Assembly (NCBI GenBank): GCA_902565385.1
Contig: CACFEW010000002.1
Coordinates: 20,240 to 84,239 of the forward strand
Length of the DNA stretch: 64,000 nt
DNA from: an uncultured Pelagibacteraceae bacterium
GTDB lineage: Bacteria; Pseudomonadota; Alphaproteobacteria; Pelagibacterales; Pelagibacteraceae
Direction of reading: 5' to 3'
The notes beneath the pieces are model-generated. The model worked only from the letters and a program-made list of their open reading frames with translations, had not been told where the DNA came from and ran no database searches. This document shows, piece after piece, positions 283 through 56,299 of this stretch (positions are counted from its first letter, which is position 1; every line of letters begins with the position of its first letter). The translations under genes and the position numbers were made by a program.

Positions 283-1032
283 GTGTTTTTTTTTCTTTTT
301 TTTTTACTCGGTTGTATATGGGGTAGTTTTTCAAATGTTTGTATCCATCGTATTCCAATTGAAAAAAGTGTCATATATAGCCGTTCTTTCTGCCCTAATT
401 GTAAAAAAACAATTAAATGGTTCGATAATATTCCTTTAATCTCCTTTTTAATACTTAAAGCCAAATGTAGAGATTGTCACAATAAAATTAGCTTTGAATA
501 TTTTATTGTAGAACTAATCTCAGCACTTTCATTTACAATTATATATTATTTTTACGGGATAAGCATCACTTCATTATTGTTGGTAATACTTAGTATTTTT
601 TTCATTATAATATTTTTTATAGACCTCCATCATTTTATTATTCCTGATCAGCTTACATACCCTCTGATGGTTATCGGTTTTGCAAAATCTTTTTATCAAA
701 TCGATAATTTTTTTTTATTTCCTAATTACATTAACTCTTTGATTGGTGGAATTTCTGGATATTTTATCATCTGGTTAATTATTTTTTTATATAAGAAAAT
801 AAGAAATAAAGAAGGAATGGGACTAGGTGATGCTAAATTATTAGCAGCGATTGGTTTTTGGTTTGGATGGATTTCGTTACCATTTATTTTATTTTTTTCA
901 TCCTTTATTGCTTTAATGGCAACTTTACCTTCATTAATAAAAAAAAGAAAAAATTTATCTTCTCAAATTCCTTTTGGTCCATTTATTGTCCTCGGTGTAA
1001 TCATGTATATAATCACACGATATCTGATTTAA
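283..1032 (+). CDS. pilD: Prepilin peptidase / leader peptidase (type IV pilin)
   Basis: N-terminal GCIWGSFSNVCIHRIP, two CxxC pairs (CPNC...CRDC), GMGLGDAKLLAAIG aspartyl motif, multi-TM; GTG start. Confidence 0.93.
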   Translation: MFFFLFFLLGCIWGSFSNVCIHRIPIEKSVIYSRSFCPNCKKTIKWFDNIPLISFLILKAKCRDCHNKISFEYFIVELISALSFTIIYYFYGISITSLLLVILSIFFIIIFFIDLHHFIIPDQLTYPLMVIGFAKSFYQIDNFFLFPNYINSLIGGISGYFIIWLIIFLYKKIRNKEGMGLGDAKLLAAIGFWFGWISLPFILFFSSFIALMATLPSLIKKRKNLSSQIPFGPFIVLGVIMYIITRYLI

Positions 1033-1069: not shown

Positions 1070-4000
1070 CTAAAAATTTTCTCTCCAAGATTTTCTATAA
1101 GATCTAAATTGTTTATCACTAGCTAATATTTCAACTAGTGTCTCACTTTGTTCAGAAGGTCCAGCAAGGTTAGCAAATAATCTAGATCCAAATACTACTA
1201 GTTTAGATAAAATACCCGCGCCCACTTCATAACAATTTCCTGCTTGAACTGAACTATCTATATGTAATGAATCTAAATAACCACATTCATCATCATAAGC
1301 ACAAACATAAGCCGTTCCTAAACTACAATTATTAAATTTATCAGGTTCATAAATTGGATAATAAACTTTTCCACGATAAACTGTAGGCGCTGCTGAAGCT
1401 TTTCTAAATAAATTTTCAGTTTCACCAGTAGGTAATCCGTCAGCGTTACCTAAGTGATATCGCCATCCAATTTTTGAAGAAGTAAGACTGCATGTAGGAG
1501 CATTTGTACCAGTTGTATCAATACATAAATCCATGTCCTCAATAGTTGGTACGCCTGCCTCTGCTTCCAATGCTTCCATTGATTTACTTACAAAATCTGC
1601 TTCTCCACTTATTGGTAAAGGGTAAGTTGGGTGAGGTACAAAATATGGAAAATCAAAGTCACGAATACCATAAACTATATTATCCATCAAACTCATTCCA
1701 TCATCAATTTCTGAAATCCTATTGAAATCACCAGTACCACCAAATAACCAAAAGTTTCCGGTGCTAGATCCTATTGCTCCATCCATTTCAAAGAAGCTTA
1801 ATCTTTTATTTGTATCATTTGCTTTTAAATTCATAATAACTTGTTGGTCAAATAATTTTTTGTCTGATGTTAAGTTTATTTTAGTAATTTTGCCTTCCAT
1901 ATCATTGATATAGACCAAACCACCTCTCCATGGTGCATTTCCAACTGCATCAGCAGTTATTACAACAGGCGCAGCAGTTATTGCGTTTTTAACTGGGCTT
2001 GCATTTGTAGGATAAGTACCCGAGAGACCTAGCTTCTTTCCATCTGGATCACTATCTACAATTTTTAATGGACCACCTAAAATTTCAGTTCCATATAATT
2101 TACCAGCCTCGTGCTCTAATGCTGTTCCAATGTCATCAGATTCAGCAGATACGTCTGCACCACCCTCAAGATCTACAAAAAACATAGCTGATCCAGAACA
2201 TTTTGACGAGCTTGGATATCCAGCCCCCATAACAGCTACATATCTATCATTATCGAGGGTTCCTGTCGATTTACCTGTTGAAGGATCAAATTTCGGCACT
2301 CTTAGTATTCTTGGTGTAGACCAGGTCTCTCCAAGTTGGCTATAGTCAAATTTTGCTTCTGAGACACCTGAACCTTCGCAAGAAGACGCAAATCTTATCT
2401 TACTTGATAATTCAGGCCCTGTACCTGCATTAAGAATTTTATCTGAACTAAATGTAATTGTTAATCTTGGATTACCAGAATCCATATTAAACTTCCCAGT
2501 AACAACTCCAGTCGGTCCAAATTGTAGAGTACTATAATCACCAGATGAATTTTCTGAAACAACTAAAGCTCCATCTTTAAGAACACCAGTTGTTGCATCA
2601 TAAGAACCTGCGGGTAGAGTTACATTAGAGAATGTAAATGTTTTTCCTTTATAACATGATTTATCTCCAGCTGTTCTGAAATTTGGATCAAAATCATCGT
2701 CCGACTCACATGCATTAATATTATCTCTGTTCGTAAAATCTGTATCACTATCATTATCATCTGCTGTAGCTTTACTGTGGTTATTAATTGCCTGTTCTGC
2801 TTCTAAGGAGTCCTGTAAACTAAATGCTCCATCTTGATATTCAAATCTATTTAATACACCATTGTGATCTACTCTTATCACTCGATTATTATAAGTATCA
2901 TTATAAATTGTGAACATATGTAAAGGACCAGAGCCTCCTCCAGTGACATTTCCAGTACTTTCATCAATTTTAATCGAACCATCAGCGTTAGTTTCTCCTT
3001 TAACAATAGTTGGATTAGTTACATCAAGAACTGAAAAGCCAGGTCCACCTCTTCCAAAAGGAATCATTAATAACGTTCTCCATGACTTAGTGGTTTCATA
3101 TGCTGTTCCCGTTTCATTTAATCCTTTTATAAATACGTCATGAACAACCGGCGAACCATCAACACCAAATATTGCATTAGACCCACCAGCTTTAATTGTT
3201 TTTTTAAATGCTCCATCCATACTTGTATTTACCAATAAAGGTAGATGAGGAACTACCATAGGAGGAACAAATGCCCACTCCTCTCTACCATTAGAAGCTC
3301 TGAATGCATGAAGCATACCTCCATTAGATCCAGCATAAATTAATCTTGGTCTATTATTTTTATCTCTTTTAAATTGCGCATACCCTTTACTAGATCTCCA
3401 GTATGCTTCTTGATTATTAGACGTAAATAAAGTGTTTGCTCCTGGAGGTCCAACTTCTACTAGTTGTGAATGGTAGATATCTGCAAGTATAGAGCCTCTG
3501 TCTTCAGTAATATTACAACCACCATTGTAATCAAAATAATCTTTTCCTCTTAAAAAATTAATGATACCTTTTTGATCATCGATAGTGCCATCCTGCACCC
3601 CACTTTCATTTTTACATGTAGATGATGTATTATGGTAATCTAAAACTATGTTACCTGTTTCCTCAAATAATGAATTGATTTCTTGATACAATGTTTCATT
3701 CCAATTGTTCCAATTTGAAACATAATTTGCCTCAGGCGACTGATCTACATCTAAAGCTGTCCAAATGTTTCTCGAATTTGATCCAAGATTAACTAATTCA
3801 TCTCCCGCATTCCAATTTTTTCCATTTCTGTCAGAATAAGTAGGACTATCCGCAACGCCCCCTGGATCATCTGGGTCATCAGCTGGTCTTATTGCTTTTC
3901 TAATAAGGTTACCTCGCCATTCCCCATTCGGTTCATAATTGAATTGCGCTTGGTAAATTGCTCCTCCCTCCTGGATTGAAGCAGTAATTGATGGTGCTGA

Positions 4001-6193
4001 GAATGAAAGCCTATCTGCTATTATTTGTCTAATTCTTGTGTCAAGTTCTGCTTTTAATTCAGCTGGGTCGTTTGCTTTTATTGTTGGTACGCACTCTGCT
4101 GATCCATCAACATCGCACGAGCCAGCTTTTGCAAATCTATCAAATACTGGTTTTGCTTTAACGTTGTCGTACGCTCCGCCATACGCCACAAACAATGTTC
4201 TCACAGAATGTTCAGTTCTTAACTCTTTAATGTTTGGTATTGAACGATCCTCGTTGAACATATGTCCATCACTTATAACTATTACATAATGTTGCTGACA
4301 CGGTCGCCGATCATTAATTACTGGGGTTTTTCCATCTAAATTTGTATAGTAACCATAAGCAAGATCTGCAAAAGCATCAGTGTCTGTGGCATAAGCCATT
4401 TCTAAATCAGCAAGGACTTCTGGTATTTCTCTATATCCATTCTTATGTACTGCAACATTAAGACAGGAGTGTTTAGTGCACATACCTGATGTTCCCTCAG
4501 GATGCTCACCTTTCCAGGGAACGCCGGTCTCTTGTGGACCAGCAGTTGGTCCAGTGTCTTCTCTGTAGTAATAACAACTCCCCGATTTTATTTTGGTAAC
4601 TGGATGTTGATTTTTGTGGCAATATCTTTGAGAAGGTCTATCATTCCCGGACATATCACCTTCTCCACCGTTCCAATGTCCAAAACCAAAATTTGCACCT
4701 GCCTGAAGTGAACTATCAGAAATAATTTCGAGAATTGCTTCTTTAGCTCCTTGAAATCGTGTTGTTTTGCCTCCACCATATTGCGCTTGCCAACTTGTAT
4801 CTTTATTTTCAGCAGTGAATTTATCTTCATCAAATAATTGAATAGTTCCATTTCTATTTCCAACTAGTATGGTGGACGAACTTACCCATAAATTTGCAGC
4901 GATTTTGCTACTACTTGTTCTTCCTGGTTCATCAAAGCTTACATCGCTAGCGGCGACAGTGCCAGCTGTACCCTCAGTTTTAATTCCCTTTTTACCAGCT
5001 GTCACTAAAACTTCATATTCAGCATTTGGAATATCTAGTCTTACTTTTTGCAAGGTATGAGTAAATTTATCAGTTATATAAATTATATCGTTATCATCAG
5101 AGGAAGCTCTTATCGAATATATAGTGTTTAACCCCCTGTCTTCAGTTGTAGTTTTATTATTTTCTTTATTTCTCATAACTTCGTTTTCAGGACTTATTGT
5201 GGCAAGTTCTCCTCCCCCCTGTGCAATAGGCACTGGGCACCATAAGTTATTGCCCTGATTTTCACCCTTAAAAGTCCATAAATTACCTTTTCTTGAAAAA
5301 TGAAAGTAATCTCCATTTTTGCTGACAGTCATGTCCAGTGACATATCTTTTTTTGTTGTGTTAAAAAGGTTTCCTGAATTATCTGGACCATCTTCATTAT
5401 TTCGTGGTTCTCCAAAGCCCCTATGAAGATCACAATGAATTTGTGCTCCATTATAGTCTGAACCATTAGCACCTAAATTTTTTACCAACATATAACCGAG
5501 TTGTTGTTTTTTTGATGCAGGTCTATTCTTATAAGCTCTTCCAAATGCAAACAATATATCCTCATCTCCAATCCTTCTAATCTCTAGTGTTTTAAACATA
5601 TCAATATCTGTTTGAAGCACAGCCTTACATGTTCCATCACTATTGATGCCAACTATATGTCCTGTAGCTTGTGATCCAAACCAAACTATATCAGCCGAGG
5701 AAACAGCCCCCGAAGCAGTATTGTTTGACTCTGAATTTATTTTTTTTTTTTGATTATTATTTCCACTATGAGGGAAATTATCGCAAGTATTGTCTTTTCG
5801 TTTGCCATTAAAATTAATGTTACCATTGGCAAATGAGGTATCTTTTTTACTTTCAGCAGTTAAAATTTTGACAGCACCATCTCCTTTCTCACCAACAATT
5901 AAGTTTCCATCAGATAATTCGACTGCCCAATCTACACCCGAAAGTCCTAAATATGTTCCACCTGTTACTGGATTTTTCATACTTAATGAACTATCTAATA
6001 AGAATAATATGTTAGCTGGAACATCCCCCTCACCAGATCCTGGTGGAATAGGTTTTGAATAACTTTGAGGAAATGTAATTAAGATAGCTAAGAAAATAAA
6101 AATATTTATTTTTATAAAATAAAAAATATCTTTAATATTTAATTTTTTAATTTTCATATTCATCAACCAGTAATACGTAAGAGTATTGTTCAC
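1070..6193 (-). CDS. pilY1: PilY1-like type IV pilus tip-associated protein with vWA domain
   Basis: N-terminal DVPANILFLLDSSLSM (MIDAS DxSxS), HYVIVISDGH, C-terminal PilY propeller (RPRLIYAGSNGGMLHAFRASNGREEWAFVPP); within minor pilin operon; likely start is the internal MNMKIKK/MKIKK near 6157-6163. Confidence 0.88.
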   Translation of the reverse strand: MNNTLTYYWLMNMKIKKLNIKDIFYFIKINIFIFLAILITFPQSYSKPIPPGSGEGDVPANILFLLDSSLSMKNPVTGGTYLGLSGVDWAVELSDGNLIVGEKGDGAVKILTAESKKDTSFANGNINFNGKRKDNTCDNFPHSGNNNQKKKINSESNNTASGAVSSADIVWFGSQATGHIVGINSDGTCKAVLQTDIDMFKTLEIRRIGDEDILFAFGRAYKNRPASKKQQLGYMLVKNLGANGSDYNGAQIHCDLHRGFGEPRNNEDGPDNSGNLFNTTKKDMSLDMTVSKNGDYFHFSRKGNLWTFKGENQGNNLWCPVPIAQGGGELATISPENEVMRNKENNKTTTEDRGLNTIYSIRASSDDNDIIYITDKFTHTLQKVRLDIPNAEYEVLVTAGKKGIKTEGTAGTVAASDVSFDEPGRTSSSKIAANLWVSSSTILVGNRNGTIQLFDEDKFTAENKDTSWQAQYGGGKTTRFQGAKEAILEIISDSSLQAGANFGFGHWNGGEGDMSGNDRPSQRYCHKNQHPVTKIKSGSCYYYREDTGPTAGPQETGVPWKGEHPEGTSGMCTKHSCLNVAVHKNGYREIPEVLADLEMAYATDTDAFADLAYGYYTNLDGKTPVINDRRPCQQHYVIVISDGHMFNEDRSIPNIKELRTEHSVRTLFVAYGGAYDNVKAKPVFDRFAKAGSCDVDGSAECVPTIKANDPAELKAELDTRIRQIIADRLSFSAPSITASIQEGGAIYQAQFNYEPNGEWRGNLIRKAIRPADDPDDPGGVADSPTYSDRNGKNWNAGDELVNLGSNSRNIWTALDVDQSPEANYVSNWNNWNETLYQEINSLFEETGNIVLDYHNTSSTCKNESGVQDGTIDDQKGIINFLRGKDYFDYNGGCNITEDRGSILADIYHSQLVEVGPPGANTLFTSNNQEAYWRSSKGYAQFKRDKNNRPRLIYAGSNGGMLHAFRASNGREEWAFVPPMVVPHLPLLVNTSMDGAFKKTIKAGGSNAIFGVDGSPVVHDVFIKGLNETGTAYETTKSWRTLLMIPFGRGGPGFSVLDVTNPTIVKGETNADGSIKIDESTGNVTGGGSGPLHMFTIYNDTYNNRVIRVDHNGVLNRFEYQDGAFSLQDSLEAEQAINNHSKATADDNDSDTDFTNRDNINACESDDDFDPNFRTAGDKSCYKGKTFTFSNVTLPAGSYDATTGVLKDGALVVSENSSGDYSTLQFGPTGVVTGKFNMDSGNPRLTITFSSDKILNAGTGPELSSKIRFASSCEGSGVSEAKFDYSQLGETWSTPRILRVPKFDPSTGKSTGTLDNDRYVAVMGAGYPSSSKCSGSAMFFVDLEGGADVSAESDDIGTALEHEAGKLYGTEILGGPLKIVDSDPDGKKLGLSGTYPTNASPVKNAITAAPVVITADAVGNAPWRGGLVYINDMEGKITKINLTSDKKLFDQQVIMNLKANDTNKRLSFFEMDGAIGSSTGNFWLFGGTGDFNRISEIDDGMSLMDNIVYGIRDFDFPYFVPHPTYPLPISGEADFVSKSMEALEAEAGVPTIEDMDLCIDTTGTNAPTCSLTSSKIGWRYHLGNADGLPTGETENLFRKASAAPTVYRGKVYYPIYEPDKFNNCSLGTAYVCAYDDECGYLDSLHIDSSVQAGNCYEVGAGILSKLVVFGSRLFANLAGPSEQSETLVEILASDKQFRSYRKSWRENF

Positions 6194-6665
6194 TTGTTAC
6201 AGCAATACCCTCTTGTGTGGGTCTATTTTCTCTTTCCCAATAATAATAAAATATTTGTTTAGGTCCAATATTCCATATTTTGTATCCTGGCCATTCTTCA
6301 CTATTGATATTAAAATCACCAAAATTTGCTTTAACAAAATTTCTTAGAAGACCTTGTTTAGACGCTCTGTTATTCCTATTATTTTGAACTACTATTTCAA
6401 CTGCACCAATAATACCATCCATCGTAAGATATGCTTTAACTAATGTTGAATCAAAATCAATATCTTCACAAAAGGCAGTGGTTTGTGATTCAAAAATTGT
6501 TACAGAGTCATTTGGATCAATGTCCTCTTCCTCAAATGAGCTTAGGAACTCTAATGTCGATGCGTTTTCTCCAATTTCAACACCCAATAAATCACAAGCT
6601 TGGATAGATTTAAACGTTACTAAATTAAATAAGATTATGAGAATTAAAATTTTTAATTTTTTCAT
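6147..6665 (-). CDS. Secreted hypothetical protein (signal peptide, two Cys) between pilX and pilY1
   Basis: MKKLKILILIILFNLVTFKSIQACD signal-like N-terminus; co-directional, overlaps pilY1 start. Confidence 0.75.
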   Translation of the reverse strand: MKKLKILILIILFNLVTFKSIQACDLLGVEIGENASTLEFLSSFEEEDIDPNDSVTIFESQTTAFCEDIDFDSTLVKAYLTMDGIIGAVEIVVQNNRNNRASKQGLLRNFVKANFGDFNINSEEWPGYKIWNIGPKQIFYYYWERENRPTQEGIAVTSEQYSYVLLVDEYEN

Positions 6666-6721: not shown

Positions 6722-7408
6722 TTAACCTGGTAATACAATAACACTTTCTAAAGGAATAACGACATCATCAGCTTGAAATATCCCACAAGCATATATTCTA
6801 TATGCAGTTCCCTCTTTTACTATATCGACAGAAGTACTGGCTATACTAGAGCCAGACTCCGTAAAAGGAGCTTTTCCTATATCGACCATAAAATATTCAT
6901 AGGTATAATTTTTTAAAACTTTTTTCTCTCTTTCGATTTCTTTTGCACTTGCCTCACTAGCAGAGAGATTGCTCAATATTGGTTCAATTAAATTATAAAA
7001 ACTTACACCTTTAATATGCTTAACCACTAACATAGTCTCTGAAGGGTTACTTGCATCTGTACCGAACTTTGTAATATTTCTAAAACTTTTATAGCATGGC
7101 GTGGATGTATCAGGCACAGCCGAATTAGTTGGAGGAATACCTTTAGTAGTTGATCTTTCATATGAAACCACTCCCTCTTTCTCAACTTTTACCCAATCTC
7201 CCATAAAATAATTAACCAAGTCTTTTTCAGCCTCAAGCAGTCCAGTCTCAGCAACATAAAATGCTTGTTGATACTCATCGCTACTATTATTTGATTTATG
7301 ATCAGTTGATGAAATAACAACTAGAGAGCCTCCCATCAATGACATAACCATCAATAAAACTAAAGACAATACTAAAGCAAAACCATTTTTTTTTTTTCTT
7401 TTTATCAT
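6722..7408 (-). CDS. pilX: PilX-like minor pilin
   Basis: KKNGFALVLSLVLLMVMSLMGGSLV N-terminus, YQQAFYVAETGLLEAE typical of PilX N domain. Confidence 0.8.
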   Translation of the reverse strand: MIKRKKKNGFALVLSLVLLMVMSLMGGSLVVISSTDHKSNNSSDEYQQAFYVAETGLLEAEKDLVNYFMGDWVKVEKEGVVSYERSTTKGIPPTNSAVPDTSTPCYKSFRNITKFGTDASNPSETMLVVKHIKGVSFYNLIEPILSNLSASEASAKEIEREKKVLKNYTYEYFMVDIGKAPFTESGSSIASTSVDIVKEGTAYRIYACGIFQADDVVIPLESVIVLPG

Positions 7409-8343
7409 TCAATCCCTATATTTCTGACAGTTACACTAGAAACTGTAGAGTCTCTTAAAAATTTGTCTTTATATTGAGCTGCAGCTTTATCTGATCCAAG
7501 ACCCAAAACTAATCTCGGTTTATCATCTGTACCAACTGTTCGATAAAAATTTTTTTTTGATCTAAAGCTTAGTCTTAAGTCAATTCGAGCAATCCTATAA
7601 AGATCAACACTACTAATATTATCTGGACGAGGATATGTTTGCGTTTCAGTATTGAAAAGATGCTTGCCATTTTCATCAAATAACAGAAATTCCATATCAA
7701 CTAAATGTGATCTGACTAATTGGTCTTTGTAACACTCTGCGCAAGTACTGATCCATGCGCCTCTCTCATATTCATCATTTTTTACCCAACTTTCTTTTGC
7801 TTTATATATTCCGTAATATTTATCATTTTCATTTTTTGACATTGGCAATGCATAATATGTTAGTCTATATTTTTTATATTTCTGATCATCTGCTTTAACA
7901 AAATCTCCATATACAATTCGGATTTGATCACAACACTGATCAGGATGATTTTGGTGTCTTGTGGGGGGTTCAGATGTTCCGTCAGCGTTATCTGCTGTAG
8001 AATAACCTAATGTATCTTTAAAAACTATTATGGGATCATGACTATCATCGACTGTTCTGTCACTTTCAGAACCTGATATATGTTCTAGATCATGAAACTG
8101 CTCTATACCTTCATCATTTGCACCGTAATAATATTTAAAACCTGCTAATCTTATGTCTTTAATAATCATACCAACTATATCTCTAGATGATCTACTTACT
8201 TTAGCTTTATCAGTTACCTGATTGTAACTATTGTTTACAACTGAGTAACTTGCAAACATAGCACCCATCATCAATGCTGTTATTGCTACACCGATTAAAA
8301 TTTCTATTAATGTTAAACCTTTTATATTTTTTTTATTCATCAT
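7405..8343 (-). CDS. pilW: PilW-like minor pilin, prepilin N-methylation motif
   Basis: IKGLTLIEILIGVAITALMM; 4-nt overlap with pilX. Confidence 0.8.
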   Translation of the reverse strand: MMNKKNIKGLTLIEILIGVAITALMMGAMFASYSVVNNSYNQVTDKAKVSRSSRDIVGMIIKDIRLAGFKYYYGANDEGIEQFHDLEHISGSESDRTVDDSHDPIIVFKDTLGYSTADNADGTSEPPTRHQNHPDQCCDQIRIVYGDFVKADDQKYKKYRLTYYALPMSKNENDKYYGIYKAKESWVKNDEYERGAWISTCAECYKDQLVRSHLVDMEFLLFDENGKHLFNTETQTYPRPDNISSVDLYRIARIDLRLSFRSKKNFYRTVGTDDKPRLVLGLGSDKAAAQYKDKFLRDSTVSSVTVRNIGIE

Positions 8344-9038
8344 CTTTTAAAGATATAATCTGCTTGAAAATATAAAAATTTCCTCTTTTTTCCTCCACTA
8401 GTATTTATTTGAACTCTACCAATGTATAATTCATCATTAACTGTAGCATTCGGAGGCGCCAAACAACCTGTGCCGGAATCACATATCTTATATACTTTGA
8501 CAGATTTAATATCTTTATTATTTTGGCATTTTAAATATCTATCTTCTCCGATGATTTGATTCCATCGTGATACTTTATTCTCTGGTGAACCTAAATTCAC
8601 ATTTGAATTTAAATAAACACTTTCAATATCAGCTTTTTTTAAAAATTTGCCTTTGTTTGCACTACAAACTGCATTTGCTTGTCCTGCAGTCCATCCTGTG
8701 CTCTCTAACCACTGAGGAAATTTTACTTTACTTGCTCTTGAGCCATCAGGGTTCACTGGCTCACCATATTCATTTATTGCAATTGTATTTCTATCTGGAT
8801 TTGTATTCATCAGTGAGTCTCTAGAACCTAAAATATCTTCAGCAATCATAGTTGTGATATAATTAATTTTAGTTCTTTCAGCAGAAACATTAATAGAATT
8901 AACAGAAAAATTAACCAATTGAAAAACAGCTATAAATCCTATGCCAACGATTGCAGTAGAAATTAATGCCTCTAATAAAGTAAGGCCTTTTTCTTTGTAG
9001 TTTTTAATTATTCTATTTGTTTTATTTATATTTTTCAT
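8340..9038 (-). CDS. pilV: PilV-like minor pilin
   Basis: KEKGLTLLEALISTAIVGIGFIAVFQL; overlaps pilW. Confidence 0.78.
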   Translation of the reverse strand: MKNINKTNRIIKNYKEKGLTLLEALISTAIVGIGFIAVFQLVNFSVNSINVSAERTKINYITTMIAEDILGSRDSLMNTNPDRNTIAINEYGEPVNPDGSRASKVKFPQWLESTGWTAGQANAVCSANKGKFLKKADIESVYLNSNVNLGSPENKVSRWNQIIGEDRYLKCQNNKDIKSVKVYKICDSGTGCLAPPNATVNDELYIGRVQINTSGGKKRKFLYFQADYIFKR

Positions 9039-9058
9039 CTTACATACTAATTCTAAAA

Positions 9059-9844
9059 TTAATTTAATTTCTGCATTTCAACATTACCAAATCTACCCCA
9101 TTTAACTGAATAAAAATTTTTCTGACCTGCCTCAACACTACATGGTGTATCAGTACCATCATTTTGGCACACAAATAATTCTTCAACAATTGTTACATCA
9201 TCATTTGATGGGCAAGGACTGCCACTTTCAGCCTCACACCCCATAAGTTCGCTTTCCTCATCTTTTGATGGATTTAAAAACATCCCACCAACAGCATAGT
9301 ATGACCCATCGTTTGAGAAACAGACTGTGCCCTCTGACAAAGTAGTAACACCTGGAACTCCTAATGAAATTTTATCGTCAATTTCAATACTAGTTACTGT
9401 TAATTTCTTACTTTCTTCATCTGAAGAATTAATTGGATATCCCTGATCATTCCACATTAATTGTCCATCGAATGTTAAGTTGGATTGACACCTTGTTTCA
9501 AAAACATGAAATGGTCTTTTTACATCACCTGTATATTTATTTCTTAAAAGTGTTGTAAAATTTTCAGTTTCCATGCCATATGAAGATAAAAACCATTTTT
9601 GTGAATCTTCACCTATACCTTTATGAACTCTAAAAAGTACAAAAGAGTAATGCCCTCTTTGAACTTGTGAAAAAATACTTTGGATCACTGATCCTGATTC
9701 TACAGCTACAGCTTTTACCATTCTATCACTTCTCCATTTTTGAAAAGGTAAAAATGCTAGTGAACTCACTAATCCTATTATCAATACAACAACAAGTAAT
9801 TCTAATAATGAAAAGCCTTTAATTTTCTTTTGCTGAATTTGCAT
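9059..9844 (-). CDS. fimT: FimT/GspH-like minor pilin
   Basis: IKGFSLLELLVVVLIIGLVSSLAFLPFQKW prepilin motif. Confidence 0.75.
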   Translation of the reverse strand: MQIQQKKIKGFSLLELLVVVLIIGLVSSLAFLPFQKWRSDRMVKAVAVESGSVIQSIFSQVQRGHYSFVLFRVHKGIGEDSQKWFLSSYGMETENFTTLLRNKYTGDVKRPFHVFETRCQSNLTFDGQLMWNDQGYPINSSDEESKKLTVTSIEIDDKISLGVPGVTTLSEGTVCFSNDGSYYAVGGMFLNPSKDEESELMGCEAESGSPCPSNDDVTIVEELFVCQNDGTDTPCSVEAGQKNFYSVKWGRFGNVEMQKLN

Positions 9845-10868
9845 CTATTTTTCCTGCTTGTGCTAGATTTTCTAATGACTTGGACATCGTTATCATTCCA
9901 TCTTTGACTGCAGTCTGCATGATGCTTGGTATTTGGTGTATCTTTGCCTCTCGAATTAAGTTTTGAATTGGAGCATTACATTTCATGACTTCAAAAGCAC
10001 CTACTCGACCTAGTCCGTCCTTTGTTTTAAGTAATCTTTGGGTCACTACCATTTTAAGTGATGTTGATAATTGTGCTCTTATCTGAGCTTGTTGCTCTGG
10101 AGGAAATACGTCAATAATTCTGTTAATTGTATTGGGTGCTCCACTAGTATGAAGTGTTCCAAATACTAAATGTCCAGTTTCTGCAGCAGTTAAAGCTAAG
10201 CTTACGGTTTCTAAATCTCTCATCTCACCTACTAATATAACATCAGGGTCTTCTCTAAGAGCAGCTTTTAATGCACTTGCAAATGTTTGGGTTTGTTTTC
10301 CAACTTCTCTATGCGAGACTATACTTTTTTGGTCAGCATGAATAAATTCTACTGGATCCTCTACAGTAATAATATTAGCAGTTCTTGTTTTATTGATTTC
10401 ATTTACAATTGCAGCCAGGGTAGTTGATTTTCCCGATCCAGTTGGTCCAGTAACTAATACTAATCCTTTATGCATATCAATTATGTCATAAAGAACATCT
10501 GGCAAATCGAATTGGCCCATCTCTGGTATTTTACTTTCTACACGTCTTAATACCGCTGCTGGACCATTCAAAGTTTTATAAAAATTAGCCCTAAATCTTA
10601 ATCCACTTATAGTAACAGCAGAGTCTAATTCGTGAGTGTCTTGAAATTTTTTGGTTTCATGCTCATTGCAATTCGTAGTCATCATGTCGATGAGATCCTG
10701 CGGTTTAACCACAACATCTTTGACCATTACGATTTCTCCAGTTTGTCTATATGCTAATGGTGATCCTGATCTGATATGAAAATCTGAAATTTTTTTATTA
10801 TTTTTTGCTAATTCTTCTAATTTATCAAACATACTATTATTTTTATCTAGAAATTTATTTAAAGACAA
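9819..10868 (-). CDS. pilT: Type IV pilus retraction ATPase PilT
   Basis: Walker A GPTGSGKSTTLAA, ITVEDPVEFIH, ALREDPDVILVGEMRDLETVSLALTAAETGHLVFGTLHT. Confidence 0.95.
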   Translation of the reverse strand: MSLNKFLDKNNSMFDKLEELAKNNKKISDFHIRSGSPLAYRQTGEIVMVKDVVVKPQDLIDMMTTNCNEHETKKFQDTHELDSAVTISGLRFRANFYKTLNGPAAVLRRVESKIPEMGQFDLPDVLYDIIDMHKGLVLVTGPTGSGKSTTLAAIVNEINKTRTANIITVEDPVEFIHADQKSIVSHREVGKQTQTFASALKAALREDPDVILVGEMRDLETVSLALTAAETGHLVFGTLHTSGAPNTINRIIDVFPPEQQAQIRAQLSTSLKMVVTQRLLKTKDGLGRVGAFEVMKCNAPIQNLIREAKIHQIPSIMQTAVKDGMITMSKSLENLAQAGKIDANSAKEN

Positions 10869-13357: not shown

Positions 13358-15136
13358 TTAAAATATCGATTTGTAATATAATTTAGCTTGAGCACCATAG
13401 GTTTCTTGACTTGAATAAAGACCATCTAAATTAATAGAAAATAAACTATTCTCTAGAGGTTGGAACTCATAATCTAAACCTACAGTAAGGATTATTTCTC
13501 TTGATAAATCATCATCTGGTTTATAGTTAGCTGAAACATTATTAACTTTAAACTCTTGAGTTTTTTCTAAGACTACTTGTCTATAATCAGCAAGCCAATT
13601 TAAATATAATTTTGATTTATCGTCAGTTAAAATCAGATATTCATCGTTTAATGCTACTGATGCGTTTATAAAATCCTTTTTTTCCCATTTGTAATATTTG
13701 CTTTCTTCGTGATTAGGGGTGAGACTGTAACCTAAAGAATAACTAAAGTCAGGTATCACATCATTTAAAAACTTAGCTCCTAAAAGAGCATCATAATTAA
13801 AATAATCATCTTCTATATCTAAAAATCCGCTAGTAGTTGTATTTGTAAGAATTCTTCTCGTACTTTTATTCAATGTTACACCCAAAAGAAAGAAGGTTTC
13901 AACATTGGAATTAAATTTAGTTTGTTTTTCATCTGAAAGAAAACCACCTGAGATACTAACACGATCTATATTATGATCTTTAGAAAATTCTTGCCTTCCA
14001 GTTTCAATCAAAAATATTTGATTTGAGTTTTCTCCAGGTTGAATAATATTTGCTCCAGCTTTCAAATTATTATGTTCTAACCTTAATGATTTCTTTTCTC
14101 CTTGTCTTCGCTCAAAAGATGAGAATACCTCTGACCAACTATCATTTTGATTTAAATATTGTTCACTTCTTTTAAATTTGATAATTGACTTTCTTAAATT
14201 AATCGATTTTTGTCCAAGTATTTCATCTAAAATTTCATTTCCTCCTTGTCCTACAGAACCAGCAGAACCTTTAACAATGACGTTTCCATCAAGATCTTCT
14301 AAGTCAAAAGTACCCTCTGTTTCATAATAATATGATTGTCCTGCACCATGTTGAATTCTTAATTTATTTCCTGTCCCATCAGAGTCGATTAAACCGATTA
14401 CTTTACCACCATCTTTTAGAGTAACAGTGTTATTATTACCAACAATATAAATAGATTTAGATGAGGGACTGTTTCTGTTTTCAATTGTCCCTGAGTTGGT
14501 TAATGTAGAACTAGTATCGATTGCTATTGTTGGAGTATCTTGAGTATTATAAATATTTCCTGTGCTGGAATTTGTGATAGTTGCATCTTCCGCAAGTTCA
14601 CCGCCAGACTGATAGATATAAATTGCTCTTTGAGAAGAACTTCCCTCTGCTTTAATTGTACCATGATTTGTAATTGTCAGTCCTGTTGCAGCCTCTGTGG
14701 CTGTAGATTGTTGAACAATTGTATTACTAGTACCACTTATCGTAGCTCCCTTATTATTTGTAATCGTTGGATTTTGTGTATCTCGTAAATTAACAGCCTT
14801 AGAACCATTTCCTATAAGAGATCCAGAGTTCGTCAATGTAAAGCCAGATGTTTCTCTAACATAAATTACATTTGCTTTACCTTCAATGGTTGCGTTTTCT
14901 TCAATAACCACTGTAGCATTATCAATTTCTGGATTATAACCTTTAACAATTCTGTCTAATGCAGCGTTTTGGAGAGCAAATCCAGATTTGATAGTTAAAG
15001 TTGAGCTAGCTTGTAAGGTTTGTTGTGTAGTAGTATCCTCTGCTATATTAACATCAGCACTATTTGCATTTTTTATTAAAAAAACAAAAATTAGTAAAAA
15101 AAAAATATTTGATAAGTGCTTTAAATTTTTACACAT
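13358..15136 (-). CDS. Autotransporter-like surface protein with beta-helix passenger
   Basis: Signal peptide; repeated TLTNSGTI / LTITNHGTIKA / FTLTNSGSLIG units; C-terminal beta barrel ending KLYYKSIF. Confidence 0.8.
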   Translation of the reverse strand: MCKNLKHLSNIFFLLIFVFLIKNANSADVNIAEDTTTQQTLQASSTLTIKSGFALQNAALDRIVKGYNPEIDNATVVIEENATIEGKANVIYVRETSGFTLTNSGSLIGNGSKAVNLRDTQNPTITNNKGATISGTSNTIVQQSTATEAATGLTITNHGTIKAEGSSSQRAIYIYQSGGELAEDATITNSSTGNIYNTQDTPTIAIDTSSTLTNSGTIENRNSPSSKSIYIVGNNNTVTLKDGGKVIGLIDSDGTGNKLRIQHGAGQSYYYETEGTFDLEDLDGNVIVKGSAGSVGQGGNEILDEILGQKSINLRKSIIKFKRSEQYLNQNDSWSEVFSSFERRQGEKKSLRLEHNNLKAGANIIQPGENSNQIFLIETGRQEFSKDHNIDRVSISGGFLSDEKQTKFNSNVETFFLLGVTLNKSTRRILTNTTTSGFLDIEDDYFNYDALLGAKFLNDVIPDFSYSLGYSLTPNHEESKYYKWEKKDFINASVALNDEYLILTDDKSKLYLNWLADYRQVVLEKTQEFKVNNVSANYKPDDDLSREIILTVGLDYEFQPLENSLFSINLDGLYSSQETYGAQAKLYYKSIF

Positions 15137-43303: not shown

Positions 43304-44701
43304 ATGGAATATTATCTTAAATCTAGCAAACAGTATTATGAAAAAAATAGCGACTCAAGATTGAAATTTATAGAAAAAAAGAAATTTTTATTTCTGGAAA
43401 TTTCAAAATTCATAAATAATTGTATCAACAATTCTAAAGAAATTTTTTTATTTTGTGCAGGAAATTCTATAATATCTCAAAATATTAAATCAGAAAAAAT
43501 TAATATAAAAGAAATAAATAAAGATTATGAAAAAAATTATGATGAGAGTGTCATTTACAAAAATGACTTTGAAAAGAAAGATATTGAGAATTGTGATCAT
43601 TTAATCATAGCTGACTTGGAACATCAAAATAATCCTACTTTAAATTTGTTGAGACTTTCAAATTTAATCAATGATGATGCGCGAATCATAATCCTGTCTA
43701 AAAATTTTTTTTGGATGTTTATTATAAAAATACTTAAATTTTTTTTTAATTTTTCACCGAAGCAAAATAACTTTCTACCATCCTCTTACCTTGCAAACTT
43801 GTATTCTAGTTGTAACTTGGAAATTGTTAGATCTGAAAAAATTATTGCTTTACCAATTAAGATTCCTTTTATTACAAGCCTTTTCAATAAAATTTTTAGG
43901 TTACCAGTTTTAAATTGGTTTTGCATTTTGAATATTACTATTTTGAAAAAAATTAATACTCTTTCGAATAATCAAAATAAAAAAATTTCATTTATTGTTC
44001 CATGTAAAAATGAGGAAAAAAATATTCCTCTTTTTAAAAATCAGATAAATAATTTAAATGAAAATTTTGAATTTTTATTTGGAGATGACAATTCATCTGA
44101 TCAAACAAGAAAAGAGATTGATAAAATCAAAAAAGAAATTAAAAATAAAGAAATTAAATTTTATGAAGGACCAGGCATATGTAAAGCTCAAAATGTTTAT
44201 AAAGGAATTGAGTTCGCAAATGGAGAAATAATAGTAATTTACGATGCTGACCTTACAGTGAGTTTTGAAGATATTAATTTTGCAATAAGTATACTTAATA
44301 ATTCTAACGCAGATTTTATTAACTGTACAAGAATGATTTATCCACAGCAAGAAGGTGCTATGAAGAAATTCAATTTTTTAGGAAATAGTTTTTTTGCTTT
44401 TTTATTTAGTGTTTTATTCAAAAAAAAAATTACTGATACTTTATGTGGAACAAAAATTTTTTATAAGAAAGATTGGTATAAAATTAAAAAAGACATATCT
44501 AATTGGGGTGCTAAAGACTTATGGGGAGATTTTGACTTATTAATAAGTGCTTACAAAAATAACCTTAAAATTCTGGAGGTTCCAGTCACTTATTTTGAGA
44601 GAGCAGAAGGAGAAACTAAAATGACAAATGTTATTGCTAATGCAATGAGAATGTTTTGGATTGTAATTTATTCTTTTTATAAGTTAAGATTAAAAGACTA
44701 A
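43304..44701 (+). CDS. Two-domain protein: N-terminal SAM-methyltransferase-like region + C-terminal GT2 (DPM1-like) glycosyltransferase
   Basis: ISFIVPCKNEEKNIPLFKNQI, FGDDNSSDQT, VIYDADLTVSFEDI; ~230 aa N-terminal extension. Confidence 0.75.
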   Translation: MEYYLKSSKQYYEKNSDSRLKFIEKKKFLFLEISKFINNCINNSKEIFLFCAGNSIISQNIKSEKINIKEINKDYEKNYDESVIYKNDFEKKDIENCDHLIIADLEHQNNPTLNLLRLSNLINDDARIIILSKNFFWMFIIKILKFFFNFSPKQNNFLPSSYLANLYSSCNLEIVRSEKIIALPIKIPFITSLFNKIFRLPVLNWFCILNITILKKINTLSNNQNKKISFIVPCKNEEKNIPLFKNQINNLNENFEFLFGDDNSSDQTRKEIDKIKKEIKNKEIKFYEGPGICKAQNVYKGIEFANGEIIVIYDADLTVSFEDINFAISILNNSNADFINCTRMIYPQQEGAMKKFNFLGNSFFAFLFSVLFKKKITDTLCGTKIFYKKDWYKIKKDISNWGAKDLWGDFDLLISAYKNNLKILEVPVTYFERAEGETKMTNVIANAMRMFWIVIYSFYKLRLKD

Positions 44702-45678
44702 TTTCTCCTCAAAATTATATAAGAGATCAAATAAATAAATACATTTATTGTAATTAATATTATTAAATAACCGTGATTATTATAGAATTTTGATCCTATT
44801 ATGAAAATGTTTAAATTATAAAAATTTATAATTAAAGCTGTAATAATATTTGACAATAATTTCTTATCAATTTTTTTATTGAGCTTTTTGAATACCAATT
44901 GATGCAAATGCTCATTATCAGGTAACATTGGAGATTTATTTTTCAATTTCTTACGTATAATCGAAAAAAGTATCTCCATCGCTGGGTACCATAAAAGTAA
45001 AATAATAAAATAAGGTGATATTATATTGTTTGTTACGTGAAGTTTAATCAATAAATATGCAAACAAAAATCCTAAAAGGTATGATCCATTATCACCTAAA
45101 TATAATTTATTGAATAAATTTAAAATCAATAAAGTTAAAAGGATATAAATTAAAATTACACTATCAAACGTAAGATCAAATTTAAGAAAATGAAGTGAGC
45201 AAATTATCAAAAAATAATAACCCAATGATAAAGTATTTAAACCATCAATAAAATTTGATCCGTTTATCACTATCAAAATACAGAACGTTACAAATAAAAT
45301 ATTAAGAGTCTTATTTGATATAATTTTATCAAGTATATCTATTCTAGTATTTGTAATCTCTAATTCTCCAATTATAGCTAAAGAAAAGCAGATTATTATT
45401 TGAAATAAAAATCTTTTATTGGCAGATATTATTTTTTTAAGATCTGAGAGGAGACCTAAAACAAAAATACTAAAAAAACAAAAATAAATTAGTTCGTTAT
45501 CATTGAAAAAAAAATAGATATTAAAAACTAATAAAATTACACCTCCTGTTAAAGGGACGCTTTTTCTAGATGAAAATTTCTGATGCAAATCACCAGTGAA
45601 ACTTGGTAATAACTTCATTCTAAGAAATAACTCATTAATCAAGGTAGATATTAAAAAAATTATAACGAACTTTTCCAT
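44698..45678 (-). CDS. MraY/WecA-like undecaprenyl-phosphate glycosyl-1-phosphate transferase
   Basis: SVPLTGGVILL, NGSNFIDGLNTLSLG, YLGDNGSYLLGFLFA, PDNEHLHQLVFKK, multi-TM. Confidence 0.9.
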   Translation of the reverse strand: MEKFVIIFLISTLINELFLRMKLLPSFTGDLHQKFSSRKSVPLTGGVILLVFNIYFFFNDNELIYFCFFSIFVLGLLSDLKKIISANKRFLFQIIICFSLAIIGELEITNTRIDILDKIISNKTLNILFVTFCILIVINGSNFIDGLNTLSLGYYFLIICSLHFLKFDLTFDSVILIYILLTLLILNLFNKLYLGDNGSYLLGFLFAYLLIKLHVTNNIISPYFIILLLWYPAMEILFSIIRKKLKNKSPMLPDNEHLHQLVFKKLNKKIDKKLLSNIITALIINFYNLNIFIIGSKFYNNHGYLIILITINVFIYLISYIILRRN

Positions 45679-46424
45679 TATAAATTTTTTAAAAGATAAT
45701 TTTTAGACAATATAAACAAGCATATTAATGATTTGATTACGCCGTAATTCATATAATTTCTATAAACCTTATATCCATCAAAAATCTTTTGTAAAAAGTT
45801 CGAGGATAACGATCCTTTAGTTTTATACCAATAAGTTAAACATCTATTAAACGAAAAAATTTTATTACCAAGTTGTAAATGCTTTAACCAAAAAACAAAG
45901 TCTTCTTTAGTTTTTAATGATGGGAATTTCACTTTTTTTAAAATTTTTTTACTAATTATAGCTGTAGAAAGTCCAATATCACAAGAATTTATTAAATCAT
46001 TTACAGAATCAAAATTTCTAGCTTTTCTAATTTGTGAATTTAAAAGACCATTGTTTATAATTTTGTAATCAGTATGTGAAATCAAAATTTTTTTTTTAAT
46101 CATAAAATTTACTTGAGACTCTATTTTTTTTTTATGCCAAACATCATCAGCATCAACAAAAGCTATATATTCACCTTTACAAATTTTCATACCTTTATTT
46201 CTTGATTTTCCGACTCCTATATTTTTTAAATTGACCACAAATTTTACTCTTTTTTCTTTTAAGGTAATTGATTGAAGATACTTTAAATCTTTTTTATCTT
46301 TATCATCATAAATTATTATTATCTCTAAGTTCTTATAACTTTGATTAACAACAGAATTTAAAGTAGCTTTGATATATTGTTTTTTTTTATAATATGGAAT
46401 AATTACACTAATCAGTTTATTCAT
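45678..46424 (-). CDS. GT2 family glycosyltransferase
   Basis: ISVIIPYYKKKQYIKATLNSVVNQSYKNLEIIII, YIAFVDADDVW. Confidence 0.92.
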   Translation of the reverse strand: MNKLISVIIPYYKKKQYIKATLNSVVNQSYKNLEIIIIYDDKDKKDLKYLQSITLKEKRVKFVVNLKNIGVGKSRNKGMKICKGEYIAFVDADDVWHKKKIESQVNFMIKKKILISHTDYKIINNGLLNSQIRKARNFDSVNDLINSCDIGLSTAIISKKILKKVKFPSLKTKEDFVFWLKHLQLGNKIFSFNRCLTYWYKTKGSLSSNFLQKIFDGYKVYRNYMNYGVIKSLICLFILSKNYLLKNL

Positions 46425-46475
46425 ATAAAAATTAGAAATTTATAAAAAATATTAGATTACTATAACTTACTTTAA

Positions 46476-47579
46476 ATGACACATAAAAAATTAATCGTTT
46501 TTATGCCTTCAATAGAAATGGGTGGGGTCGAAAAAAACTTATTTATTATTTCAAATTATCTAAGCTTAAAATTTAAAGAAACTACACTTATTACTTCATC
46601 ATCAAACACAAAAAAATTTGGAAAAAAGGTTAAAATTGTAAGTTTTGATTTACTCAGTAATATTTTTAAATTTAGAAGTTTAAAGATTTTGATAAGCTGT
46701 ATTTTACTAATTAAAGAAATCATTAAGAATAAATTTCAGGATGTTACTATCCTAAGTTTCCAGGCAAATATATATTCGATTTTAATTGCTAAAATTTTTA
46801 AAAAAAAGATAATTGTTAGATTAAATTCTTCGCCTACAGGTTGGTTAAAAAATTCATTAAAAAGAAAGATATTTACAAAGATTTATTCTTTATCAAATTT
46901 AATTATTGTAAATAGTCGAGAATTCAGAAATGAAATTAAAAAAAAATTATATTTAAAATCAATATGTATTTATAATCCATTAGATAAAGAAAAAATAGTA
47001 AAAAAAGCAAAAATAAATTTTAAAAAAAATCCTTATAAGATCAAAAATTCATTAAAACTAATTAGTGTTGGTAGATTAGTTGATCAAAAAGATCATTTAA
47101 CATTATTTAGATCAATTAATAATATCAAAAATAAAATCAAAGTTGAATTAATTTTAATAGGCCAAGGAAAAAATGAAATTCTCTTAAATAATTATATCAA
47201 GATTAATAAACTTGAAAAAAATATAAAAATTTTAGGTTATAAAAAAAATCCCTATCCATTTATTAAATATTCTAATGTTCTAGTGTTAACATCAAAATAC
47301 GAGGGGTTACCAAATGTCTTATTAGAAGCAATTGCATTAAAAAGGTTTGTAATTTCGAGCGATTGTCCAACTGGACCAAAAGAAATTCTGGATAATGGAA
47401 AAGGTGGAATGTTATTTAGAACTGGAAATTATAAAGACTTATCTAAAAAGATTATTCTATACAAGAACCAAACCAAGGTAATTAAAAGAAAAATTAATCA
47501 CGCTTATTCATTATTAAAAAAATATGACTCAGAAAAAAACTTAAATTTATATTATAAAAATCTTATTAAATTAAATTAA
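46476..47579 (+). CDS. GT4 family glycosyltransferase
   Basis: ISVGRLVDQKDHLTLFRSI, VLTSKYEGLPNVLLEAIALKRFVISSDCPTGPKEIL. Confidence 0.93.
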   Translation: MTHKKLIVFMPSIEMGGVEKNLFIISNYLSLKFKETTLITSSSNTKKFGKKVKIVSFDLLSNIFKFRSLKILISCILLIKEIIKNKFQDVTILSFQANIYSILIAKIFKKKIIVRLNSSPTGWLKNSLKRKIFTKIYSLSNLIIVNSREFRNEIKKKLYLKSICIYNPLDKEKIVKKAKINFKKNPYKIKNSLKLISVGRLVDQKDHLTLFRSINNIKNKIKVELILIGQGKNEILLNNYIKINKLEKNIKILGYKKNPYPFIKYSNVLVLTSKYEGLPNVLLEAIALKRFVISSDCPTGPKEILDNGKGGMLFRTGNYKDLSKKIILYKNQTKVIKRKINHAYSLLKKYDSEKNLNLYYKNLIKLN

Positions 47580-47662
47580 AATTTCTGATAATTTTTTAAC
47601 TTTACTCTTATCTTTTTTATATAAACAAAACTTTTAAGATGAAATAACCAAATAACGATTTT

Positions 47663-49330
47663 TTATCTTTCAAAAAAAATATAATTATTAATTACCCTGA
47701 TTTTTCTAGGAGTATTTGAGCAAGGTGTAGGGGTTGCCCAGCAATACCCATTGGTTGTATACATGTAAGTTTCATTTTCAAAACTAAAACTTTCATATTT
47801 TTTATCAATTACAGTATAAAATGGAAAATTATCAAATTTATATTGATCGTTTCGATTAAATTCTAATTCTAATCTTAAAACATTTTTTGTATTAAAAATG
47901 ATTATTATAAGAATAATAAAAAAGTTAGTTATTTTATTAATATTAACTTTAGTGTTTTTAATAGAATAAAAAAACAAAAATATCGATGTTAAAAAAATCG
48001 TCACAGGTAAATACCCTCCATATCTTAAAGATGGATGTTTAAAAAACCAGATTAATAGTGCTAAAGAGCCTATAAAAATCAATATTTTTCTAACTTTGAC
48101 TAAATCATCCTTTAAATTAAGTTTTTTGTTAAAACTGAAAAATATAATTAAATTAATCAAAATAACTATAAAAAAGAAATCTGATACTTTGCCTACGAAA
48201 TAATTTTTGTACCAGTTGGTGACCCAGTTTAAACCTTTGATGTACTCATTCAAATTTTCGACTTGAAAGTTTGGGCTAGCTCCAGCTTTTGCCCACGATT
48301 CAAGCCAAATATCATTTCTAATAACTTCCTGTGAGTCTAAGGACCAAAAAAACTTATCTCCTATACAAGTAATTTCGACTGGATATATTACACAACCAGT
48401 ATTTATAAAATTATGAATAATAAATAAACTAATAAAAAATAAATAACAAATAATTGCATTTAAATTGAGATTCTTATTCTTTAATGGGTTTAACTTTAAT
48501 TGATAGAAAACAAAAGGTATCAATAAAAAATAAATTAAAAAATAAACCTTAAATGATAAAACTATAAATAGTAAAAAAATATTAAAATATAAATTTACAA
48601 TTTTTTTATCAATTATTAAAATATTTATGAAATTTATAATTATAACAAGCAAAATAATTTGACCAGCAATATCTGTTCCATATTCTGAAAGTCTGGTGAA
48701 TTTAGTATTTATTATTGTTAAAAATATTAATGATAATAAAAAAATTATATTCTTCTTTTTTAGATTTTTTATAAGATTATCTAATAATATATAATTTACA
48801 AAAATTAGTATTAAGTAGTTGGGTAAATTAAATAAAAAGTACTTTAACCAAGGTAAAAATTTTAATGAATTTAAAAAAAGTAAAGCTGAATGATGTCTGT
48901 AACCATAATTTAGAAGGCCCATACCAAATGAAACTTTGTTTTCAGATAAATTTAAGGCGAAAGGTAAATGATAATAAGGAAAGTCGTCATGATTTTTGGA
49001 AATTATGAAGAATAAAAAAGTGAAAATCGTAATTAAAAATAATAACCTCAAATTTTGATAATCAATTTTTTTTTTATCAAAAAAAAATAAGAATAAACCT
49101 ATAGTTAAAATCAATACATTATGTAACGAATTGTGTGGTATAAAAAAACTAGTAAAATATGATAGCACTATAAGAAAAAAAATTCCTAATAAGCCTAATT
49201 GACCATAATTAACAATAGATTCACCTTTAAATATTAAATTATTAAAAAATTTTCCGTAACCAATATAAGAAAGCCCAAATAATAAAATTAATAAAAAAAT
49301 TGATATTATTTCAAAAAAATGAATTATCAT
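47663..49330 (-). CDS. Polytopic membrane protein (GT-C-like or LIC_10190-like)
   Basis: Many TM segments; motifs DDFPYYHLPFALNLSENK; in polysaccharide island. Confidence 0.6.
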   Translation of the reverse strand: MIIHFFEIISIFLLILLFGLSYIGYGKFFNNLIFKGESIVNYGQLGLLGIFFLIVLSYFTSFFIPHNSLHNVLILTIGLFLFFFDKKKIDYQNLRLLFLITIFTFLFFIISKNHDDFPYYHLPFALNLSENKVSFGMGLLNYGYRHHSALLFLNSLKFLPWLKYFLFNLPNYLILIFVNYILLDNLIKNLKKKNIIFLLSLIFLTIINTKFTRLSEYGTDIAGQIILLVIIINFINILIIDKKIVNLYFNIFLLFIVLSFKVYFLIYFLLIPFVFYQLKLNPLKNKNLNLNAIICYLFFISLFIIHNFINTGCVIYPVEITCIGDKFFWSLDSQEVIRNDIWLESWAKAGASPNFQVENLNEYIKGLNWVTNWYKNYFVGKVSDFFFIVILINLIIFFSFNKKLNLKDDLVKVRKILIFIGSLALLIWFFKHPSLRYGGYLPVTIFLTSIFLFFYSIKNTKVNINKITNFFIILIIIIFNTKNVLRLELEFNRNDQYKFDNFPFYTVIDKKYESFSFENETYMYTTNGYCWATPTPCSNTPRKIRVINNYIFFER

Positions 49331-50628: not shown

Positions 50629-51400
50629 TTATTTTCGTAATATAATAGTCTAAAGTTCTAATTTTTTTTTTATTCACATTTTCATAATAATCAAAACCTT
50701 CAAGTCTTCTTTTTAACCAATTAGAATTAAACAATGAAAAATTTTTATTACTTTCATTGTCATCATGTTGAAAATAATAGGTTAATTCATTGTTTAGAAA
50801 AAATGTGTTTTTTCTAAATTGGTCTGATAAGGCTGCAATTCTAAAGTCTAGAGTTGTTAAAGGAAATTTCTTTTTAAAAAGTTTACCAATATTTTTTTGA
50901 ATAGTTTTTCTTTTTACTGAGATACAACTTTGAGGGGGAAATAAAGGCCATTTATTTTCCCTAAAGCTGTAATTTTTTAAATTCCTACTAATTATACCTT
51001 TAAGATTTATTATTTTAGGTCGATCAAATACAAAATCCAAATTTTTATATCTTGAAAAATAATAATCAATTTTTGATAGTTTATTTTTTTTTAAATAATC
51101 ATCTGAGTCAAGAAAACATATAATTTCACCTCTTGATTTAATGAAACCATGATAATAACTATTAAGCTGATAATATGTATTAAATTTTGAAATATTCTTT
51201 TTTTTTTTTGTTTTAATCAGTTTTAATTTTTTTTTAAATTCTTTAACTATTGCTAGAGAGCTATCTGTTGAATTATCATCAATGAAAATTATTTCAAAAG
51301 GACTTTTCGTATTTTGTGATAGACATGAATTAATACATCTCCTCAAATATTTTTCACCATTATAATTAGCAATTAATATTGAAATTTTTATTTTTTTCAT
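50612..51400 (-). CDS. GT2 family glycosyltransferase
   Basis: ISILIANYNGEKYLRRCINSCLSQ, IIFIDDNSTDSSL, IICFLDSDDYL. Confidence 0.92.
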   Translation of the reverse strand: MKKIKISILIANYNGEKYLRRCINSCLSQNTKSPFEIIFIDDNSTDSSLAIVKEFKKKLKLIKTKKKKNISKFNTYYQLNSYYHGFIKSRGEIICFLDSDDYLKKNKLSKIDYYFSRYKNLDFVFDRPKIINLKGIISRNLKNYSFRENKWPLFPPQSCISVKRKTIQKNIGKLFKKKFPLTTLDFRIAALSDQFRKNTFFLNNELTYYFQHDDNESNKNFSLFNSNWLKRRLEGFDYYENVNKKKIRTLDYYITKIINIFF

Positions 51401-51425
51401 TTAACTTCTTTTAACTTACACTAAC

Positions 51426-52550: not shown

Positions 52551-52552
52551 TC

Positions 52553-53659: not shown

Positions 53660-53700
53660 AATGAATATTTTTACATATAAATTATTTATTCATATATTAA

Positions 53701-54360: not shown

Positions 54361-54368
54361 GAGGTTTT

Positions 54369-55931: not shown

Positions 55932-55944
55932 TTTTTCTATAAAT

Positions 55945-56241: not shown

Positions 56242-56299
56242 AAATTACTCTAAAATATGTACTTTAAATGAATATAATAGTAAATAAAGTATAATTTAA

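Follow-up and report, generated by a model that had tools for sequence, protein, structure and literature searches.

An NHL-type beta-propeller predicted within the vWA domain of a PilY1 protein from SAR11 bacteria

Few cells in the ocean are as abundant as SAR11 bacteria, which are usually regarded as free-floating. A stretch of 64,000 nucleotides from an uncultured member of the Pelagibacteraceae, hereafter called the window, carries a gene for a PilY1-like protein in which a preliminary description had recognised a second, propeller-like segment nested inside the vWA domain. The locus raises the question of whether one domain of this protein is truly built within another, and what such an arrangement might do for the pilus. 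A search of open-access papers returned no literature on SAR11 PilY1.

The pilY1 coding sequence lies on the minus strand at positions 1073-6163, starting with an ATG at 6163 and ending with a stop codon at 1070-1072, and encodes a protein of 1697 amino acids; a GTG at 6193 represents a possible longer start. The peptides quoted in the preliminary description were all found in this open reading frame, and the protein proved 100% identical to that of the single-cell genome AG-426-D09 (SAR11, Pelagibacteraceae).

Membership of the PilY1 family is defined by the C-terminal PilY1 beta-propeller (PMC13190605), and the corresponding region of the window protein was located at 1073-3496 on the minus strand. 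The Pfam family PF05567 was missed when the whole protein was scanned at once, while the C-terminal part scanned separately returned a match with an E-value of 4e-9, above the curated cut-off. The same family was recognised in all 22 PilY1 homologs scanned, and the C-terminal family profile found the solved propeller of Pseudomonas aeruginosa PilY1 (PDB 3hx6) with an E-value of 6.6e-30. The P. aeruginosa C-terminal propeller bears an EF-hand-like calcium loop, which is not used to define the family. Of five classical PilY1s covered by a simple motif scan, some but not all showed this loop, and the scan found no calcium-loop pattern of the classical type at the aligned place in SAR11 C-terminal propellers (alignment A8). 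Judged from its sequence, the product is a genuine PilY1 of the SAR11 type IVa pilus.

The genes surrounding pilY1 belong to a pilus cluster that is retained in relatives. Upstream and on the same minus strand, a gene for a small secreted-looking protein of 172 amino acids (6147-6665), whose end overlaps the pilY1 start, is followed by a minor pilin set (6722-9844) and by a PilT/PilU family retraction ATPase (9819-10868; TIGR01420, 4e-124). The minor pilins, scanned with Pfam (PilX_N, N_methyl) and NCBIfam (type_IV_pilV, gspH), resemble PilX (6722-7408), PilW (7405-8343), PilV (8340-9038) and FimU/GspH (9059-9844). The prepilin peptidase PilD (283-1032, plus strand; Pfam A24_N_bact and Peptidase_A24) is encoded on the opposite side. 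The 172-amino-acid protein has a hydrophobic start and no family match, and shares 72% amino acid identity with its counterpart in genome AG-447-P22 (locus L034), versus about 98% for the minor pilins; its divergence accompanies that of pilY1, and it is a possible candidate for a tip partner or a chaperone.

Other features were also observed in the window. An autotransporter of 774 amino acids (PF03797; 10997-13321, plus strand), whose passenger resembles another beta-propeller, directly adjoins the pilus cluster. A secreted-looking beta-repeat protein of 592 amino acids without family match follows at 13358-15136 on the minus strand, and a homolog of it is placed between pilY1 and pilD in locus L032. 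Positions 44001-64000 show a GC content of 0.21-0.25, versus about 0.30 before, with a glycosyltransferase-like open reading frame at the start of the region, which is probably a hypervariable surface-polysaccharide region.

The vWA domain was then examined for its MIDAS elements, all encoded on the minus strand. Strand 1 (NILFLLDSSLSM; 5978-6013) carries the DxSxS motif as DSSLS (5981-5995; D57, S59 and S61), is conserved in homologs and was modelled by AF2 as a strand at 7-14 with high pLDDT. Helix 1 (TTRFQGAKEAILEIISDSSL; residues 467-486, 4706-4765), modelled as a helix at 426-439, marks the point at which the vWA domain resumes; this segment, TTRFQGAKEAILEI, is separated from strand 1 by about 403 residues. 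The rest of the domain (4007-4705) displays an alpha/beta pattern in the AF2 model and includes the remaining MIDAS residues T593 (ATDTDAF) and D632 (VIVISDG) at 4265-4390. Among readable homologs, the first three MIDAS residues (D57, S59, S61) were kept in 28 of 28 and the other two in 29 of 29, so that by its residues the MIDAS of the window protein appears intact and forms a putative metal site. Pfam VWA_2 was recognised in all 13 near relatives of alignment A5.

The intervening segment spans residues 63-465 (4769-5977), in good agreement with the insert of about 400 residues previously placed at 4750-5990. The proposed split of the vWA domain between strand 1 and helix 1 was upheld by the homologs, by the AF2 model and by a relative with an empty site. 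In this relative, L118, strand 1 and helix 1 are joined by three residues (DVSGSM-RGS-RLKTMQNAVNRIV, also given as DVSGSM-RGS-RLKTMQNAV), leaving the vWA domain uninterrupted, and the helix 1 counterpart of near relatives aligns with its helix 1. Pfam VWA matches L118 from model position 1, while in two insert-bearing relatives scanned alongside, and likewise in L111, the match begins at position 16-17, beyond the insert. L118 comes from a genome of the same family with SAR11-like GC; it is a single insert-less case in a fragmentary assembly (160 contigs, 5% contamination). The AF2 model of the vWA domain plus insert, in which strands and helices alternate as in a Rossmann-like fold, returned a pLDDT of 83.6 and a pTM of 0.74. 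All SAR11 PilY1s spanning the junction except L118 have an insert of about 260-460 amino acids there, and the nesting is therefore not due to chance. We consider the nested-propeller architecture of the vWA domain, taken alone, as very nearly certain.

Assignment of the insert to a propeller family required an indirect route. The sequence of the window insert showed no significant Pfam match, and when the window protein alone or a profile of the whole family was searched against Pfam, NCBIfam and the PDB, weak NHL matches were the most that emerged. The divergence of the window copy puts it beyond the reach of Pfam, and its NHL identity was therefore read through shorter, cleaner relatives. 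Pfam NHL was recognised in 12 of the 13 members of alignment A5, with a best E-value of 3e-21; 12 of the 13 are insert-bearing, and these clean relatives all have the match. The insert profile of these relatives matched the solved NHL propellers of Pizza, Thin and TRIM71 with E-values of 1e-34 to 1e-37, and window-type inserts were linked to the clean NHL inserts by hhalign with a probability of 99.3% over 258 columns. Of the "NHL/WD-like" blades suggested earlier, the NHL type was thus retained, the window copy itself being assigned by profile-profile homology.

Structural modelling gave a consistent picture. The insert alone was predicted by AF2 with a pLDDT of 87.5 and a pTM of 0.90, and the structures retrieved by Foldseek were propellers, with NHL domains ranking near the top (TRIM71 NHL, TM-score 0.62 normalised to target length). 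Six strand groups were counted from the sequence and DSSP, and the propeller probably has six blades. Their approximate limits on the minus strand, drawn from the AF2 strands and the alignment to NHL relatives, are 5810-5935 for blade 1 (beginning VDWAVELSDGNLIVGEKGDGAVKIL), 5612-5701 for blade 2 (SADIVWFGSQATGHIVGINSDGTC), 5426-5593 for blade 3 (KTLEIRRIGDEDILFAFGRAY...LGYMLVKNL), 5231-5341 for blade 4 (LDMTVSKNGDYFHFSRKGNLWTF), 4994-5128 for blade 5 (TIYSIRASSDDNDIIYITDKFTHTLQKVRLD) and 4772-4900 for blade 6 (ANLWVSSSTILVGNRNGTIQLFDEDKF...TSWQAQY). The insert is thus predicted to be a closed, separately folding NHL-type beta-propeller. Modelling and profile comparison of the inserts, checks of the kind proposed in the preliminary description, both agreed with a propeller nested in a vWA domain.

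The distribution of this arrangement was investigated among SAR11 and beyond. In 30 further SAR11 homologs the insert at the junction measured 287-463 residues, and 17 more loci were also insert-bearing; twelve of these were measured and have 266-306 residues separating the MIDAS from helix 1. Counting the window and some near-duplicates, the insert is kept in 48 of the 49 loci spanning the junction, across two families of the order. Of 197 Pelagibacteraceae genomes, 42 contain a PilY1 of the window type (29 of the 77 good ones), and at the level of the order a profile joining vWA and propeller matched 45 out of 147, again in two families. Applied to 385 genomes from the class and 399 from the phylum, the same profile gave no full match outside the Pelagibacterales, these wider searches being samples of a few hundred genomes each. 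Outside the order, the cleaner NHL-insert profile retrieved proteins with NHL alone and PilY1s that were unrelated or lacked the insert; across the wider searches NHL and vWA matches fell in separate proteins, in PilY1s free of NHL or in tandem (L206), none of them nested among the matches listed, and Pfam NHL was found in 0 of 37 other PilY1 N-termini. L037/L188, from family f24 of the same class, has the same vWA family on a contig that stops before the junction. The nested propeller, then, occurs across the Pelagibacterales and in no sampled genome outside. One genome (G043) contains three pilY1 genes within about 35 kb (L029, L121 and L155), with the MIDAS variants DKSGSM, DRTYSM and DKSQSM and with different inserts.

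Sequence comparison revealed that the insert is the least constant part of the protein. Mean pairwise identity is 25% for the insert, 48% for the vWA core and 43% for the C-terminal region, the last value being calculated from a separate alignment. In every close pair compared, apart from the near-identical L022/L025, identity was lowest in the insert; the insert is 58% identical in L115/L154, where the vWA reaches 94%, and 82% identical in L021/L022, where the vWA reaches 98%. In the window and L034, the minor pilin, PilT and PilD genes share 98-99.6% DNA identity, while the value is 85% for the 172-amino-acid gene, 75% for the insert, 86% for the vWA and 91% for the C-terminal region. Correspondingly, dS amounts to 0.51 in the insert, 0.37 in the vWA and 0.24 in the C-terminal region; in the minor pilin and PilT genes it stays at 0.006-0.077. 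Because dS is high in the insert and the neighbours are near-identical, we conclude that tip alleles are exchanged, and the divergence valley looks as though a divergent allele had been brought in, with the propeller at the centre of the replaced stretch. The elevated dS shows exchange of divergent alleles and leaves the selecting agent unspecified. The dN/dS of the insert, about 0.5 and higher than elsewhere in PilY1, is compatible with relaxed constraint and equally with diversifying selection. As the fastest-changing part of the tip, the propeller is suggested by this pattern either to recognise or to hide from what the pilus touches.

On these grounds we slightly favour a mechanism in which the conserved vWA scaffold would carry the propeller on its MIDAS loop as a recognition head that can be exchanged. 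Known PilY1s occupy the pilus tip (PMC11046646; PMC8806160) and by analogy the SAR11 protein would do the same, its C-terminal propeller tying it to the minor pilins. The vWA domain, with its intact putative metal site, would serve as the scaffold, and the nested propeller might stand beside or over the MIDAS at the far end of the pilus, a predicted placement relative to the metal site based on the topology and on the overall pTM of 0.74. From the evolutionary pattern we infer that the propeller may bind a ligand. Contact with the propeller, or a pull on it, could then be passed on to the vWA where the chain crosses twice between the two domains, next to the metal site, presumably occupied by a metal, and this coupling of force would link a bound ligand to pilus retraction.

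Other explanations were weighed against the same data. The propeller might instead cap or gate the MIDAS until a ligand or force moves it aside, the metal site of the vWA being the real adhesive surface. Gating is conceivable because the metal site adjoins the points at which the chain passes into and out of the propeller, and each end of the insert is joined a few residues away from DxSxS or helix 1; the MIDAS residues are all conserved and therefore the site is probably used, and in integrins vWA and propeller are allosterically coupled. Nevertheless, the insert-less L118 has the same MIDAS, and thus a gate is not essential for the fold; we regard gating as unlikely, and ligand or calcium gating as suggested in the preliminary description is so far unsupported. 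We judge just as unlikely that variation of the insert stems from its exposure as a target for grazers, competitors or phages that bind the pilus, with recognition by enemies rather than choice of ligand driving the change. The sharp divergence valley at the tip gene, its high dS beside near-identical neighbours and the same trend in other close pairs would all suit such pressure, but the pattern fits ligand-driven diversification equally and no pilus-dependent SAR11 phage was identified in this analysis.

A purely structural role of the propeller, as a spacer or stabiliser free to drift and devoid of a specific ligand, seems quite improbable: the low identity of the insert and its dN/dS above the rest of the protein would suit this explanation, but its retention in nearly all loci spanning the junction, in two families of the order, argues against it, and drift within a lineage would not leave the window and L034 with such divergent alleles (dS 0.51) next to genes that are nearly identical. 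Finally, an artefact, whether a frameshift, a chimeric contig or a DSSLSM strand that is not vWA strand 1, might be feared in a window genome that is 67% complete and split into 50 contigs. We consider its likelihood negligible, since the same open frame recurs in many genomes, L118 joins strand 1 and helix 1 directly and the AF2 model is confident.

Under the favoured reading, an exchangeable recognition head, a swappable propeller as the recognition part of the pilus tip would offer a concrete handle on whether SAR11 cells touch anything and what they touch. The natural pair of proteins with and without the propeller provides a way to study inserts in the MIDAS loop in PilY1 adhesion and force sensing, and the role of these inserts is a question common to all PilY1 proteins.

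Comparison with known systems places the SAR11 protein among PilY1s with an occupied junction. Classical PilY1s, from P. aeruginosa and other beta- and gammaproteobacteria (PF05567), share with it the C-terminal propeller, the N-terminal vWA with DxSxS...T...D and the minor pilin neighbours, and their vWA parts are related to those of SAR11 (hhalign 98.9%). In those with a recognisable DxSxS and helix 1 (NFANWYSFYRNR), 129-298 residues lie between the two, and an insertion site unique to SAR11 was consequently rejected. Profile comparison revealed no similarity between their own insert (YYNP.VTY.P...) and the NHL propeller of SAR11, the hhalign probability being 0.1%, and the idea that the two are the same propeller was left unsupported. 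The novelty originally suggested must be divided: a propeller nested in a PilY1 vWA is absent from the papers searched, but the insertion site is ordinary for PilY1 and the junction is filled there by unrelated inserts of 129-298 residues.

Propellers of the same repeat type and probable blade number occur in TRIM71, Thin and Pizza6, which are eukaryotic or designed and are not set within a vWA domain. NHL and vWA also meet in one secreted-looking bacterial protein of family f188 (L206:367-2634), which differs in holding NHL and then an unbroken vWA in tandem (Pfam from position 1) and is not a PilY1; many genomes of that family have open reading frames of about 1700 amino acids with NHL-like matches. 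The integrin alpha subunits with an I domain likewise combine a nested vWA and beta-propeller, with ligand binding at the MIDAS and allosteric coupling between the two (PMC12422189); the nesting there is reversed, with the vWA inside the propeller, and we claim no homology with SAR11 PilY1. By analogy, the SAR11 protein might be a mirror image of this layout, in which a replaceable, ligand-reading propeller would allosterically control the MIDAS and inform the retracting pilus of its catch, a proposal that we hold to be doubtful.

Parallels are also found in other pili. CpaL of the Caulobacter Tad pilus is a pilus protein, predicted at the tip, whose vWA is split by a beta-rich domain; it differs from SAR11 PilY1 in its pilin-like N-terminus, its double beta-barrel insert and its Tad system (PMC12607857). 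ComC, the PilY1 of Acinetobacter baumannii, is like SAR11 PilY1 a tip adhesin with lineage-specific insertions in the vWA scaffold, one of which has a functional role, and its gene cassette is replaced between strains; residues 166-256 of ComC form its insert, a finger built of antiparallel strands, whereas that of SAR11 is a propeller (PMC10374093). Since classical PilY1s, ComC and CpaL all carry inserts, the insertion hot spot is a property of PilY1, and the SAR11 variant is a propeller cargo carried at this hot spot.
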